Below are positions 7,962 through 14,571 of a DNA stretch of 42,289 nucleotides, in pieces. Below the pieces are notes generated by a model. That model was given only the letters and a program-made list of their open reading frames with translations, was not told the origin of the DNA and ran no database searches. Origin of the DNA: Acidimicrobiales bacterium (GTDB lineage Bacteria > Actinomycetota > Acidimicrobiia > Acidimicrobiales > MedAcidi-G1); NCBI GenBank assembly GCA_016845305.1, contig JAERSW010000134.1, positions 1-42,289 of the forward strand, written 5' to 3'. Every line of letters starts with the position of its first letter. Within the stretch, counting starts at the first letter, position 1. The position numbers and the translations under genes are program-made.

Positions 7962-7987
7962 GGGCTCCGGAAGGGGACACCGGTCGG

Positions 7988-8074
7988 CGGAGGGAGTGGG
8001 ATTCGAACCCACGGTGACCGTGAAGCCACACACGCGTTCCAGGCGTGCCGAATCGTCCGCTCTCGCATCCCTCC
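7988..8074 (-). tRNA. tRNA-Ser (anticodon GGA)
   Basis: 87-nt class II tRNA on the minus strand. Acceptor arms GGAGGGA (8074-8068) and TCCCTCC (7995-7989) pair fully. The anticodon stem cacgc/gcgtg encloses loop CTGGAAC with anticodon GGA, and the T-loop GGTTCGAATCC and a long variable arm are present. CCA is not encoded (CCG follows the discriminator base). Confidence 0.93.
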
Positions 8075-8138: not shown

Positions 8139-8244
8139 GTGGCGGTCGGGTCCTGTGCGACCGGGGCCCGTGAACCGAGTCAGGGCCGGAAGGCAGCAGC
8201 TCTCAGCGGAATTCCCGGAGTGCCGCAGATCACCTGGCCGCCAC
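8139..8244 (+). ncRNA. ffs: Signal recognition particle RNA, small bacterial type
   Basis: The conserved helix 8 sequence is plain: GTCAGGGCCGGAAGGCAGCA followed by the complementary TCTCAGCGG. The ends GTGGCGG (8139-8145) and CCGCCAC (8238-8244) close a long terminal helix, giving about 106 nt. The RNA binds Ffh for co-translational membrane targeting. Exact ends are estimated from pairing. Confidence 0.88.
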
Positions 8245-8842: not shown

Positions 8843-8932
8843 GGAAGGTTGCCAGAGCGGACGAATGGGGCGGCCTCGAAAGCCGTTGTGGCCTCCGGGT
8901 CACCGTGGGTTCGAATCCCACACCTTCCGCCA
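8843..8932 (+). tRNA. tRNA-Ser (anticodon CGA), CCA encoded
   Basis: Class II tRNA: acceptor GGAAGGT/ACCTTCC, discriminator G at 8929 and encoded CCA at 8930-8932. The anticodon stem gcggc/gccgt encloses CTCGAAA (anticodon CGA). A long variable arm and the GGTTCGAATCC T-arm are present. Confidence 0.94.
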
Positions 8933-10583: not shown

Positions 10584-11456
10584 TCACGCCCGGGCGTCGG
10601 ACCGACCGGCCAGGACGGTCCGGGTGGCGGCCACCATGCGGGCTGCCGCCGGTCCCACGCCGCCGGCCACCAGATCCCGGTTGAAGACCTCCGGACAGAC
10701 CATGGGCGTGGCGCCGATGCCGGCCAGCAGGTCGAGGAGGTGCCCGTGGTCGACGACGCCGTCGCCGGGCAACGGGCGGGCCGCCATGCACTCGGCCATC
10801 GGGTCGTCCCACGGCTCGGGACCCGCATCGCAGACCTGGAGGATCGGCACCGCCCAGCCCGGCATCGACGCCAGGGTCTCGGCGTGGCGTCCGTGCGGAC
10901 CACCGGGCTGGCGGTGCCAGTGCCACGAGTCGACCATGACGCCGACGTTGGTGCGCTCCGTGCGTTGCAGCAGGTCCCAGCAGGTGCTGATGTCGCCGAT
11001 GCCGGACCAGGGCAGGAACTCGACGCAGATCGTCACGTCGACCTCGGCGGCCCGGTCGGCCACGGCGGCCAGGTTGGCCGCGGCGGCGTCGACCGACGCC
11101 AGCTCCGGCTCGAGGCAGACGGCCACCAGGTTGGGGGCGCCGTGCGCCGCGGTCAGCTCCAGCCACGGCTCGGCGTCGGCCACCGCGGCGTCGGTCGACC
11201 CGGCATTGGCCCAGCCGTGGAGTGCCTCCACGCAGCCCACGGTCAGCCCGGCGTCGGCGAACCTCGCCCGCACGTCATCCGCGGTCAGGCCCTCGTTGGC
11301 CAGCAGCAGCTCGTGCAGGGTCCACCACGAGAGGCCGTCGGCCCCCGCGGCCACGAGGGCGTCGACCGCGGCGTCGAAGGTGGCGCCGTCGATCGAGAAC
11401 GGGTCGGCGAGCAGCGTCGACAGGCAGGGCAGGACGGGCTGGTCGTGGGTGGTCAT
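10584..11456 (-). CDS. Sugar isomerase/epimerase-like TIM-barrel protein
   Basis: 290-residue protein of the xylose-isomerase-like / AP endonuclease family 2 TIM-barrel superfamily. Likely divalent-metal ligands sit at the ends of successive strands: E146 (ICVEFLPW), D176 and H179 (MVDSWHWH), D210 (LQVCDAG) and E256 (CPEVFN). Family members isomerise or epimerise sugars, dehydrate inositol derivatives or cleave ring compounds; the substrate is not determinable here. Its ATG (11456) overlaps the TetR stop (ATGA), so it is co-transcribed and probably controlled by that regulator. The operon is divergent from the UGSC selenoprotein operon, suggesting a shared process. Confidence 0.8.
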   Translation of the reverse strand: MTTHDQPVLPCLSTLLADPFSIDGATFDAAVDALVAAGADGLSWWTLHELLLANEGLTADDVRARFADAGLTVGCVEALHGWANAGSTDAAVADAEPWLELTAAHGAPNLVAVCLEPELASVDAAAANLAAVADRAAEVDVTICVEFLPWSGIGDISTCWDLLQRTERTNVGVMVDSWHWHRQPGGPHGRHAETLASMPGWAVPILQVCDAGPEPWDDPMAECMAARPLPGDGVVDHGHLLDLLAGIGATPMVCPEVFNRDLVAGGVGPAAARMVAATRTVLAGRSDARA

Positions 11457-12031
11457 GCGGGGGCCTCCTCGGCGACGGGCAGTTGGTCCATGAGGGCGCC
11501 GACCAGGTGGTCGACGCTGGTCGACGGACGGGGCGAGAGGGTGAGGCGGCCGTCGCGGACGAGGGCGGCGAAGCCGGTGGTCAGGGCCAGCTGGAGGCGG
11601 ACCCAGTGGACCCGCTGGTCGGCGTCCAGGCCCAGCGAGGCGAGGACGGTCTGCAGGGGGCCGCCGGCCCGGTCGATGGCGGCCCGCAGGTCGGCGTCGT
11701 CGCCGGGTGGGTGGACGGTGGCCTCCGATCGGCCCGGATGTCCGAGGGCGAAGTCGAGCTGGGCGCGCACGATGGCCTCGACGGCGTAGGGGCCCGATCG
11801 CCCCACGGCGGCCGTCGTCACCAGATCGGCCAGCTGGTCGAGGCACCGGAGGGCCAGGAGCCGGCGCAGGCCGTCGGCGCCGTCGACGTGGGCGTAGAGC
11901 GACTGGCTGCGGATGCCGAGGCGGTCGGCGACGGCGGCCGGGCGCACCGCGTCGACGCGTCCAGCCTCGTCGAGCAGGTCCAGCGCGGCCTCGGCCACCT
12001 GTTCGACGGTGACCCCTCGACGTGCTGCCAT
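11453..12031 (-). CDS. TetR-family transcriptional regulator
   Basis: 192-residue TetR repressor. The N-terminal helix-turn-helix is visible in VEQVAEAALDLLDEAGRVDAVRPAAVADRLGIRSQSLYAHVDG (about 9-51); the C-terminal ligand domain contains FALGHPGRSEATVHPPGDD and RVHWVRLQLALTTGFAALVRDG. The ATG at 12031 lies 8 nt after a good -10 box and has no ribosome-binding site, so the mRNA is probably leaderless. It overlaps the downstream TIM-barrel gene and probably represses both divergent units through the palindrome at 12075-12090. Confidence 0.9.
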   Translation of the reverse strand: MAARRGVTVEQVAEAALDLLDEAGRVDAVRPAAVADRLGIRSQSLYAHVDGADGLRRLLALRCLDQLADLVTTAAVGRSGPYAVEAIVRAQLDFALGHPGRSEATVHPPGDDADLRAAIDRAGGPLQTVLASLGLDADQRVHWVRLQLALTTGFAALVRDGRLTLSPRPSTSVDHLVGALMDQLPVAEEAPA

Positions 12032-12068: not shown

Positions 12069-12101
12069 CGCCTGTCAGACTCATGTCTGATGTCTGTAGA
12101 C
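12053..12101 (+). promoter_or_regulatory. Promoter and operator of the UGSC operon
   Basis: Plus-strand -35-like TTGCCA (12053-12058), 17-nt spacer, -10-like CAGACT (12076-12081), with the ATG at 12090 only 8 nt later. A perfect inverted repeat TCAGAC-N4-GTCTGA (12075-12090) covers the -10 and reaches the start codon, and a second short palindrome GTCTGTAGAC (12092-12101) follows. This is a likely TetR operator. Confidence 0.5.
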
Positions 12102-13181
12102 ACCCGACCCTCCGAAGCGCCCTCCGGCGACCTGCCCGGCGACCTCCTCGACGTGGCGGAGGGCGAGGACCTCGTCGACGCGCTGGCCGCCCACGGCTGG
12201 GGCGACGGCCTGCCGCTGGTCGCCCCCACCCCCGAGCGGGTCGACGCCATGCTCGCCGGCTGCCCCGACGCCGATCCCGACGAGGTGGTGGCCGTGCTGC
12301 CGCCCCGCTTCGGCGAGGCCACCCGCCGCACCCTCGCCGTCAACGCCGTGATGACCGGTTGCCGACCCGAACACCTCCCCGTCCTCGTGGCCGCCGTCCG
12401 CGCCCTGGCCCGACCCGAGGTCAACCTGCGCGGCGTCAACGCCACCACCCACAACGTGGCCCCCCTCGTCGTCGTGCACGGCGAGGTGGCCCGCACCGCC
12501 GGCTACCACGGCGGACTCGGCGCCCTCGGCCCCGGCAACCGGGCCAACGCCGCCACCGGCCGGGCCCTGCGCCTGGTCCTGCTCCACGTGGCCGGCGCCA
12601 CGCCCGGCGACGGCGACGCCTCGACCCAGGGCGGACCGACCAAGTACGGCCTCTGCGTGGCCGAGAACGCCGGCGCCTCGCCGTGGCCCGCCTACCCGTC
12701 GGCCGTCGGAGTGGACGCTCCCTCGGCGGTCACCGTCCACTGCGGCGAGGCACCCCACAACGTGCACGACATGGAGTCGGACGACCCGGCCCGCATCCTC
12801 GACAAGGTGGCCTCGGCCATGGCCACCACAGCCCAGAACAACGCCTGCATCAGCCAGGGCGAGTACCTGGTGCTGCTGTGCCCCGAGCACGCCGCCACCT
12901 GCGCGGCGGCCGGCTGGTCGCGACGCGACGTGTCGTCCTACCTGTTCCAGAAGGCCCGCCTGCCGGCCGCCGAGCTGAAGCAGGCCTTCCAGCTCCGGGC
13001 CTGGGCACCGTGGATGAACCGCCTGGCCGACGACGACCCGGCGCCCATGACCGAGCACCCCGACAACATCCGGGTGATGGTGGTGGGCGGCCCCGGCAAG
13101 CACAGCTCGGTGGTCCCCAGCTGGGGCATGACCCGCACCGTGACCGTTCCCCTCGACGAGACAGGACCCCGATCGTGCTGA
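12090..13181 (+). CDS. Uncharacterised protein encoded with the UGSC selenoprotein
   Basis: 363-residue protein of no assigned function. Recognisable conserved blocks are AHGWGDGLPLVAPTPERVDAML (about 34-55), GEATRRTLAVNAVMTGCRPEHLPV (75-98), GLGALGPGNRANAATGRALRLV (142-163), the AENAGASPWP segment and a C-terminal VMVVGGPGKHSS. It is Cys-rich for a cytoplasmic protein (C58, C91, C189, C218, C253, C264, C271 and the last residue C363), suggesting redox or metal chemistry. I recall similar GWxDGLPxVxPT proteins as unnamed neighbours of UGSC proteins. No signal peptide or membrane segment. ATG 12090 lacks a ribosome-binding site (leaderless promoter 8 nt upstream). Its end overlaps the selenoprotein GTG by 7 bp, so the two products are likely partners. 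Confidence 0.7.
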   Translation: MSVDTRPSEAPSGDLPGDLLDVAEGEDLVDALAAHGWGDGLPLVAPTPERVDAMLAGCPDADPDEVVAVLPPRFGEATRRTLAVNAVMTGCRPEHLPVLVAAVRALARPEVNLRGVNATTHNVAPLVVVHGEVARTAGYHGGLGALGPGNRANAATGRALRLVLLHVAGATPGDGDASTQGGPTKYGLCVAENAGASPWPAYPSAVGVDAPSAVTVHCGEAPHNVHDMESDDPARILDKVASAMATTAQNNACISQGEYLVLLCPEHAATCAAAGWSRRDVSSYLFQKARLPAAELKQAFQLRAWAPWMNRLADDDPAPMTEHPDNIRVMVVGGPGKHSSVVPSWGMTRTVTVPLDETGPRSC

Positions 13182-13699
13182 TCCACCGACCCGACGGCGG
13201 CGTCGCCCAGGCGCCGGCCGAGCTCGCCCCGTCGCCACCCGTGCTGGCCGGGCGACGCATCGGCATCCTCGACAACCGCAAGCCCAACGCCGACGTGCTC
13301 CTCGAGCGCCTGGCCGACCGCCTGGTCGAACGCACCGGCGCGACGGTGGTCCGCACCGAGACGAAGAACGCCGCCATCGCCTGCTCCGACCAGGTGCTGG
13401 GCCTGCTCGCCGAGGAGGTCGACGTCATCCTCACCGGCACCGCCGATTGAGGGAGCTGCACGTCGTGGAGTGTCCACGACTCCGTCCACCTCGAGGCCGC
13501 CGGCCGACCCACGGTGCTGGTCGCCACCGGTGCCCTACGTGAGCTCGCCGACCAGACCGCGACCGACCTGGGCCTGTCCGACCTGAGGGTCGTGTCGGTC
13601 GCCCATCCGATCGGCGGCGTCGACCCCGACGAGATCCGACGTCGGGCCGACGGCGTGGTCGACGAGGTCCTCGCCCTCTTGACCGGCGGGGCCGCGTGA
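13175..13699 (+). CDS. UGSC-family selenoprotein (TGA at 13448 read as selenocysteine)
   Basis: 174-residue protein whose frame is crossed by one TGA at 13448-13450. Reading it as selenocysteine gives U92-G93-S94-C95, the motif that names the UGSC (seleno)protein family. The frame stays open and family-like after it (TSWSVHDSVHLEAAGRPTVL) to the stop at 13697. The N-terminal half (AGRRIGILDNRKPNADVLLERLADRL) is also typical. A perfect 8-bp stem with a 3-nt loop (13462-13480) starts 11 nt after the TGA, as expected for a bacterial SECIS. GTG 13175 overlaps the upstream stop; the stop overlaps the next gene as TGATG. A redox active site built on U92/C95 is likely, but function is unknown. A naive gene call would stop at 13450 and miss 83 residues. 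Confidence 0.85.
13448..13480 (+). promoter_or_regulatory. Selenocysteine TGA codon with SECIS-like hairpin
   Basis: The TGA at 13448-13450 is followed, after 11 nt, by a perfect 8-bp stem (13462-13469 with 13473-13480) closing a GTG loop; alternative outer pairing GGAG/CTCC may extend it. Bacterial SelB recruits Sec-tRNA at such a stem-loop close behind the UGA. Structure is inferred by eye. Confidence 0.65.
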
Positions 13700-14571
13700 T
13701 GGCCGTCGCCATCGACCACACCGGCCGTCGGGCCCTGGTCACCGGGGCCGGGGCCGGGATCGGCCGCGAGGTGGCCCGCTGGCTGGCCCGGGCCGGCGCC
13801 GCGGTGGCCGTCAACGACCTGGTCGCCGAACGGGCCGAGGCGGTCGTCGCCGAGATCGCCGACGAGGTGGCCGCCACCGGGGGAACCGGCTCGGCCGTGG
13901 CCGTCCCCGCCGACTGCCGGGACGACGACGCCGTCGACGCCCTCGTGTCCACCACCGTCGAGCGGCTCGGCGGGCTGGACGTGGCCGTCAACAACGTCGG
14001 CATGCTCCCCGCCGGACGCCGCCCCAAGCCGTTCGTGGCCAACCGGGCCGACGACTGGCGGGACATCGTCGACCAGAACCTGGTGGTGGCCGCCCTGTGT
14101 GCCCGCGCCGAGGCCGAGGCGATGCTGGCCCGGCCCGCCGGTCCCGACGGCGAGCGTGACGACGCCACGATCCTGTTCGTGACGTCCGGGGAGACGACCC
14201 GGCCGGCCCCCTACAACGCCGTGTACGCGGCGGCGAAGGCGGCGGTCAACCACCTGGTCACCACCATGGCCGTCGAGCTGGGCCCCGAGGGGATCCGCGT
14301 CAACGCCATGGCGCCGGGCACGACGCTGACCGAGACGGTGGCCGCCGCGTTCACCGAGGACCGGGTGGCGTCACTGGTGGCCTCGACGCCACTCCGGCGC
14401 ATGGTCGAGCACGACGAGCTGGCCCGCATGGCCGTCTTCCTGACCAGCGACCTGGCCCGCTGCGTCACCGGGCAGTTCGTGTTGGCCGACGCCGGGGCGT
14501 TCCTGGCCCGCAACCGTCCCGCCAACGACGAGGGGCTGGTGTCGAAGCTGTCGGGCGCCCATTCCCGCTGA
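13699..14571 (+). CDS. Short-chain dehydrogenase/reductase
   Basis: 290-residue classical SDR: nucleotide-binding TGAGAGIG near the N-terminus, NNVG in the central strand, catalytic Ser in FVTSGE and YAAAK (Tyr/Lys), and a C-terminal region ending in a short tail. It oxidises or reduces an alcohol/ketone with NAD(P); the substrate is unknown. ATG 13699 overlaps the UGSC stop (TGATG); an in-frame GTG one codon upstream (13696) is the alternative. It is third in the leaderless UGSC operon, so its substrate is probably connected to the selenoprotein pathway. Short GGACGGGTCC tandem copies follow the stop. Confidence 0.88.
   Translation: MAVAIDHTGRRALVTGAGAGIGREVARWLARAGAAVAVNDLVAERAEAVVAEIADEVAATGGTGSAVAVPADCRDDDAVDALVSTTVERLGGLDVAVNNVGMLPAGRRPKPFVANRADDWRDIVDQNLVVAALCARAEAEAMLARPAGPDGERDDATILFVTSGETTRPAPYNAVYAAAKAAVNHLVTTMAVELGPEGIRVNAMAPGTTLTETVAAAFTEDRVASLVASTPLRRMVEHDELARMAVFLTSDLARCVTGQFVLADAGAFLARNRPANDEGLVSKLSGAHSR

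Follow-up and report, generated by a model that had tools for sequence, protein, structure and literature searches.

The window analysed here, a stretch of 42,289 nucleotides from the genome of an Acidimicrobiales bacterium (contig JAERSW010000134.1), contains a gene of the UGSC family, which we call U, set between the gene of a partner protein, P, and a short-chain dehydrogenase (SDR) gene, with a TetR-type regulator gene running divergently (Table 1). The U frame extends from GTG 13175 to the stop TGA at 13697-13699 and meets a single internal TGA at residue 92. Read as selenocysteine (Sec), this codon gives the motif U92-G-S-C95, and the residues GSC are followed by TSWSVHD. An earlier note on this DNA had proposed this frame and motif, together with family-like coding sequence beyond the TGA. 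The translation bears out the former, and two curated profiles run across the TGA as expected from the latter: NF041046 of NCBIfam (139.5 bits, curated cut-off 125, residues 26-170) and PF24696 of Pfam (164.4 bits, curated cut-off 25, residues 5-170). By these matches the window's U gene is a member of the UGSC family, and as a selenoprotein gene it belongs to a kind that is already known. The start codon of U overlaps the stop of P by 7 nt, an overlap found identically in loci L023, L025, L028 and L031, and the stop of U shares bases with the ATG of the SDR gene (TGATG). Because of these overlaps, P, U and SDR look translationally coupled. Elsewhere the window carries a small SRP RNA gene and two tRNA-Ser genes, all of them ordinary.

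Table 1. Features of the window (positions in the 42,289-nucleotide stretch)
Feature	Position	Strand	Remarks
tRNA-Ser gene	7986-8074	-	ordinary
Small SRP RNA	8144-8242	+	ordinary
tRNA-Ser gene	8843-8932	+	ordinary
Divergent TetR-type regulator (TetR_C_33)	11453-12031	-	possible operon regulator, a role suggested by position only
Partner gene P	12090-13181 (about)	+	conserved core at 12147-13145, in which Cys 72 and Cys 170 are conserved; start codon inferred
UGSC-family selenoprotein gene (U)	13175-13699	+	174 residues, Sec at residue 92; NF041046 and PF24696 matches
Sec codon UGA of the UGSC motif	13448-13450	+	TGA at the same place in 30 fetched related loci
Bacterial SECIS hairpin	13462-13480	+	8-bp stem, 13462-13469 with 13473-13480; loop GUG
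Short-chain dehydrogenase (SDR, adh_short_C2)	13699-14571	+	third gene of the probable operon

The comparison with related sequences makes it nearly certain, in our judgement, that SelB and tRNA-Sec decode UGA 13448 as Sec, using the hairpin that closely follows it. A UGSC match is present in 78 of 119 related genomes, and exactly one in-frame TGA occurs in 143 of the 149 matches listed from these genomes; six have none, two of them being fragments behind the Sec site. The earlier note had held that close homologues ending at the TGA would speak against its reading, and no such ending is seen among the 30 best-scoring related loci fetched, all of which read through the TGA with U-G-S/A-C. Cys at the Sec position, for which the note had suggested looking, is found in 54 loci (L065-L118) from a scan of named genomes for Cys forms, so that the Sec and Cys forms it had ascribed to the family both occur among the homologues. 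The named records that match best, L065 and L066, suggest that the window is akin to Acidimicrobiia. The hallmarks of a bacterial selenoprotein are therefore present: a conserved in-frame UGA, coding sequence on both sides and Cys homologues at the same site.

The genome of the window (G000; 2.92 Mb, 98% complete) holds all four components of the Sec machinery that the note had proposed to search for. On contig C58 the gene for SelA (379 bits) immediately precedes that for SelB (269 bits), the same contig carries the tRNA-Sec (67.5 bits against a gathering threshold of 47; anticodon UCA according to ARAGORN), and SelD, itself with an in-frame TGA, is encoded on contig C121. Across the related genomes, a SelA match at E up to 0.001 accompanies the TGA-bearing UGSC gene in 70 of 75 genomes, compared with 19 of 44 others (Fisher P 2e-9), and the five without a match are 69-88% complete. 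On a plasmid of Paracoccus ferrooxidans (pFER4, CP038202.1; L155:8396-8965), a UGSC gene with an in-frame TGA and a hairpin of seven Watson-Crick pairs and one G-U sits between selA and selB. Its annotation breaks the gene at the TGA into two 'hypothetical proteins', the splitting that the note had predicted of standard gene callers.

The perfect stem-loop that had been described 11 nt behind the TGA is reproduced, with eight Watson-Crick pairs, 11 nt from the UGA to the stem and 19 nt from the UGA to the loop. In the bacterial SECIS (bSECIS) model as described in PMC13188914, a stem of 4-16 bp bears a loop of 3-9 nt that lies 16-37 nt from the UGA, with G in the first two loop positions and mostly the pattern N-G-[G/U]-N-N, the outer N being paired. 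Setting the energy criterion aside, the window hairpin fits this geometry (8 bp, GUG, 19 nt), and its loop region reads A-G-U-G-U. Hairpins of at least seven pairs at such spacing stand behind 10 of the 708 TGA triplets in the window, and all eight pairs were kept in 122 of 20,000 synonymous recodings. The folding energy is unexceptional (z -1.26), being at least as low in 25 of 200 shuffles and in 3,586 of 20,000 synonymous variants. The energy z-scores of Sec and Cys genes also differ little (medians -0.43 and 0.07, Mann-Whitney P 0.003). Folding energy, not significant for the window, was therefore dropped, and the case for a SECIS element is made from geometry and covariation rather than from stability. 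Thus, of the folding check that had been suggested, the fit to the published model stands and is joined by covariation, whereas plain folding energy lends nothing.

Covariation was assessed in 32 distinct Sec segments, the window and 31 others. In these, 95.7% of the cells are paired and four of the eight pairs show double-sided changes. None of 500 shuffles equals the segments in the share of paired cells, in double changes or in covariation score, whereas their number of pair types is reached by 11 of the 500; related sequences may, however, exceed shuffles even without a structure. When the partner column is slid by 1-3 positions, pairing falls to 13-47%. Compensation is visible in the codons, where a change from Trp (TGG) to Cys (TGC) is paired with a change of Val from GTC to GTG that restores the pair, and where, at L054, a Cys-to-Ser change is matched by His to Leu. 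Seven or eight of the eight pairs are found in 31 of the 32 distinct Sec genes; among 57 distinct Cys genes, seven pairs occur in seven and eight pairs in none. For the Ser in the loop, 30 of 30 Sec genes use the codon AGT, which is seen in none of the 18 Cys genes having Ser there. Judged from these genes, the Cys homologues retain the protein motif, mostly without the hairpin.

If the TGA were a nonsense mutation or a true stop, the match downstream of it would be a decayed remnant. Beyond the TGA itself, and a folding energy that is unremarkable when taken alone, nothing speaks for such decay, and it is at odds with the single in-frame TGA in nearly all family matches of relatives, the complete Sec machinery of the genome, the covarying hairpin and the conservation of the protein after the TGA. 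We therefore reject the nonsense mutation and leave the decay reading only a vanishing chance. The selenoprotein reading of the earlier note is upheld, by profiles that cross the TGA, by the relatives, by the Sec machinery and by a hairpin that fits and covaries.

The gene upstream of U, which the earlier note had missed and which we add here, is a near-constant partner of UGSC. A tblastn search with the upstream protein recovered P from 29 of the 30 UGSC loci that had been fetched; the P-less locus, L018, begins at a contig end, and in L017 P lies about 1 kb from U. Searched over the same 119 genomes, a P profile (A6) gave 150 places. Of the 149 U matches in these genomes, 139 are accompanied by a same-strand P within 1.5 kb, 136 of them within 300 bp, in the order P-U in 122 pairs and U-P in 17. 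Ten of the 149 U matches and 11 of the 150 P matches stand without the other nearby, some of them at contig ends. U and P also adjoin in the 54 Cys-form loci, which come from haloarchaea, an Archaeoglobi MAG, sphingomonads, Streptomyces relatives and others, and 27 ORFs in 26 loci fuse them, in Cys form, into one U-P protein. This pattern argues strongly that U and P are subunits of one two-subunit enzyme, which we regard as very probable. Even with matches up to E 1 admitted, P drew from Pfam and NCBIfam only sub-threshold matches to unrelated families, and plasmid records annotate it as 'hypothetical protein' wherever the listed row names the feature. Among 102 P sequences, D20, G21, G71 and P246 are invariant; C72 is present in 97 of 102 and C170 in 93 of 101.

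Several loci depart from the simple pair. Tandem or extra P genes occur in L058 (G087:C14) and L057, in the order U-P-P or as P without U, which suggests P paralogues with another or a shared partner. On plasmids of Vibrio europaeus and Sporomusa termitida (L152, L153), ORFs of 561 and 574 residues carry P at their C-terminal end, and their N-terminal part is missed by the U profile. They adjoin genes for aconitase X and DUF126, a hint of a wider family and a pointer to the substrate class. In haloarchaea (L080, L082, L083, L147, L148) a DUF6282 protein (PF19799) is encoded directly after U-P and is a possible third component there.

A model of U with Cys read at residue 92 (pLDDT 91, pTM 0.85) has five strands alternating with helices, and residue 92 falls between strand 84-90 and helix 93-108. 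The predicted fold is thus an alternating beta/alpha, Rossmann- or receiver-like sheet. It is unlike the thioredoxin fold and argues against the latter, which a 2008 paper (PMC2398784) had judged likely for UGSC. The model of a natural U-P fusion, the 573-residue protein of L109 (Sphingomonas formosensis), has a pLDDT of 94.8 and a pTM of 0.94. Foldseek and VIA-align matches of U are generic Rossmann and receiver folds. The best of them, a chain of the methyl-coenzyme M reductase activation complex (Z 11.7, rmsd 2.9, 130 aligned), is tied with a designed protein (Z 11.2), and we therefore draw no function from these matches. The structure search with the fusion model covered almost only its U part. 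When the PDB was searched by sequence, neither the U profile nor the PrdB-like proteins described below gave a match, and the fusion gave three chance matches (E 0.068 and worse).

A thioredoxin or thioredoxin reductase gene (trxA, trxB) lies within 2 kb of U or P in 10 of the 67 loci in which U or P is flanked by 2 kb or more on each side, a set that is partly non-independent (L080 is the L148 record, and L084 is close to L088). In five of the 10 loci the trx gene is 12-54 bp from P, U or the fusion. The arrangements include trxB-trxA-P-U in Arthrobacter and P-U-trxB in Roseovarius. In an NCBIfam check of nine proteins from seven loci, thioredoxin or thioredoxin reductase models came out on top, several of them below the equivalog cut-off, and the trx proteins checked on three plasmids are as annotated. 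For trxB alone, eight of the 67 loci were observed against 0.08 expected, the expectation being based on the 30 thioredoxin reductase matches that score at least about 260 bits in 20 genomes totalling 138 Mb. No trx gene stands beside the U-P pair in the window. Among the stretches fetched from related genomes, only L058 has a trxB-like match, which is weak (105 bits), 99 bp from P and in a frame that holds a stop.

Other neighbours recur as well. A same-strand SDR gene follows U within 400 bp in 21 loci (from 102 U matches with room; L072 weakly), and it does so without exception at the 12 loci of the window's subtype that were fetched from the same genus; in this count L051 and L063 stand for L019 and L031. 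CoA-transferases, acyl-CoA dehydrogenases, hydratases, ligases, amidohydrolases and organic-acid transporters are repeatedly encoded near U-P, a list made without a background control. The all-against-all BLAST of neighbours used ORFs of 200 aa or more, and its largest cluster, which looks like antisense ORFs over U and P, was ignored.

The trx genes that adjoin U-P would also fit a general thiol/selenol oxidoreductase or peroxidase, reduced by thioredoxin and serving detoxification or thiol redox, in place of the GrdB-like substrate reductase discussed below. The thioredoxin-like fold proposed in 2008 (PMC2398784) points the same way, as does a report of GrdB peroxidase activity that appears, by its title, in the reference list of PMC3091704. 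Such a general role sits poorly with the predicted alternating beta/alpha, Rossmann-like fold and with the tight pairing to a second protein of about 330 residues. The CoA-transferase, acyl-CoA dehydrogenase, hydratase and ligase neighbours, counted without a background control, suggest a catabolic step instead. We consider an oxidoreductase or peroxidase of this kind unlikely, if still a serious competitor.

By eye, the tail of UGSC ('...VILTGTAD-U-GSCTS...AAGRPTVLVAT...DLGL...VAHPIG') parallels that of GrdB ('...VIATST-U-GTGT...AGIPAVLVT...SLGV...VTHPMG'). Like GrdB and PrdB, U carries its Sec behind a hydrophobic strand, the motif being UxxC or UxxCxxC in many relatives, and then shows 'G.P.V.V' and 'HP.G'. 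Many relatives read UGSCTSC or UGSCSSC, and the window's branch reads UGSCTSW. In hhalign, 97 U sequences compared with 13 PrdB-like selenoproteins of the related genomes gave a probability of 68% (P 4.6e-5), with Sec on Sec. With two true GrdB sequences added to the PrdB-like set the probability was 92.2% (P 5.9e-7), the Sec region being aligned, and with the two true GrdB alone it was 53.8% (P 1.3e-4). The misframed rows L123 (PrdB-like) and L157 ('GrdB') were left out of these comparisons. At the profile level, then, the GrdB/PrdB signal varies with the sequence set compared. As controls, 43 neighbour clusters, some of which may be spurious ORFs, reached 2.6% at most, save the Rossmann domain of a 2-hydroxyacid dehydrogenase (38%) and U's own TGA-cut ORF (97%). 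Because the Rossmann control reaches 38%, part of the U-GrdB signal may reflect a shared fold.

The differences are also considerable. A Pfam search of U at E<=0.001 returned UGSC only and no GRDB (PF07355) match. With about 174 residues, U is without the N-terminal part of GrdB. Compared with four GrdE sequences in hhalign, P gave a P-value of 0.58, that is, no relation, so that P as a GrdE-type subunit was discarded and the partner of U differs from pyruvoyl-type GrdE/PrdA as far as the comparison with GrdE reaches. Since the GRDB profile misses U and the partner is not GrdE-like, we do not file U as a member of GrdB/PrdB. In addition, UGSC is present in lineages living with oxygen (Sphingomonas, Paracoccus and Streptomyces relatives), a further difference from GrdB/PrdB. 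Tentatively, and at slightly less than even chances, we see in U a distant stand-alone relative of the GrdB/PrdB Sec domain. From such a kinship it would follow that reduction or reductive cleavage is the likely reaction, with P holding the substrate.

PrdB-like selenoproteins also occur in the genomes searched, for example at G000:C116:8483-8836 (L134:1075-2007), and 42 of 61 genomes have a GRDB match. At the PrdB-like loci L123-L143, 20 of 21 read U..C with an in-frame TGA, and the Pfam GRDB profile ends near the Sec. These proteins resemble U in the in-frame TGA (UPVC or UPLC) and in the Sec after a hydrophobic strand, and differ in their greater length and in a GRDB-type stretch that precedes the Sec. 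Two genomes of the same genus (L158, G011:C45; L159, G012:C24) carry GrdE-GrdB pairs with an in-frame TGA in GrdB, of the glycine/sarcosine/betaine reductase type.

Alternatively, the enzyme might be a lyase, transferase or isomerase without redox chemistry, in which Sec or Cys92 acts as a nucleophile or binds a metal; P would then supply the active-site residues, and thioredoxin would only keep the site reduced. The invariant residues and two conserved Cys of P would suit this, as would the replacement of Sec by Cys in many lineages, from which it follows that the selenol is not always essential. The UxxC arrangement, often UxxCxxC, is typical of redox proteins, however, and the linkage to thioredoxin genes tells in the same direction. 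Asp/Glu racemases (PF01177), one non-redox Cys family, reached a probability of 1% (P 0.056) when 15 of their sequences were compared with U in hhalign. A non-redox role thus appears improbable to us.

The explanation that we favour for the whole, with somewhat better than even confidence, is that U is the Sec-carrying subunit of a two-part enzyme, which is reduced by thioredoxin and acts on a small catabolic substrate by reduction or cleavage. Sec92, lying between a strand and the next helix of the predicted Rossmann-like sheet, would act with Cys95 as a redox pair that cycles between selenol/thiol and an Se-S bond. The site of reaction would be an activated carbon in a small organic acid or a CoA-linked catabolite, which P may bind in place of the pyruvoyl subunit GrdE/PrdA, and the SDR and amidohydrolase neighbours may handle substrate or product. 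The oxidised Se-S bond is probably re-reduced by thioredoxin, to judge from the trxA and trxB neighbours in other lineages. In glycine reductase, the driving system consists of NADPH, thioredoxin reductase and thioredoxin (PMC3091704). It is possible, though we hold this with less confidence than the kinship with the GrdB/PrdB Sec domain, that UGSC and P form a new class of two-subunit, thioredoxin-driven Sec/Cys reductases, in which U is a domain of the GrdB/PrdB line and P a new substrate subunit. If so, reductive bond cleavage of the glycine-reductase kind would extend to aerobic catabolism, in bacteria as well as in haloarchaea.

In the Global Ocean Sampling data, UGSC ranked fifth in abundance among 51 selenoprotein families, with 255 Sec and 21 Cys sequences (PMC2398784, Table 2). 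The window's U is like the 'UGSC-containing protein' of that paper and the NF041046/PF24696 family in scores, motif, Sec and Cys forms and single-domain gene, and differs from it in nothing essential. What we add are the partner family, the prediction of a Rossmann-like fold and the thioredoxin linkage. The 2008 paper mentions a UGSC/Unknown_1 fusion, in which Unknown_1 may or may not be P, and a 2026 review (PMC13188914) places UGSC among families of largely uncharacterised function. The available portions of PMC2398784, PMC13188914 and PMC9312934 report no partner beyond that fusion, no GrdB link and no function, in keeping with the earlier note's description of the function as undescribed. 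The partner gene, the fusions, the thioredoxin linkage and the GrdB/PrdB link would turn an 'unknown redox protein' into a concrete two-subunit enzyme. The job of a common aquatic selenoprotein thereby becomes testable, because the Cys form lends itself to expression and screening in ordinary E. coli. The window's genome itself encodes two more UGSC selenoprotein paralogues with P genes of their own, at G000:C18:33261-33764 and G000:C75:8960-9457 (L049 and L050), which belong to the subtypes UGSCSSC and UGSCTTC.
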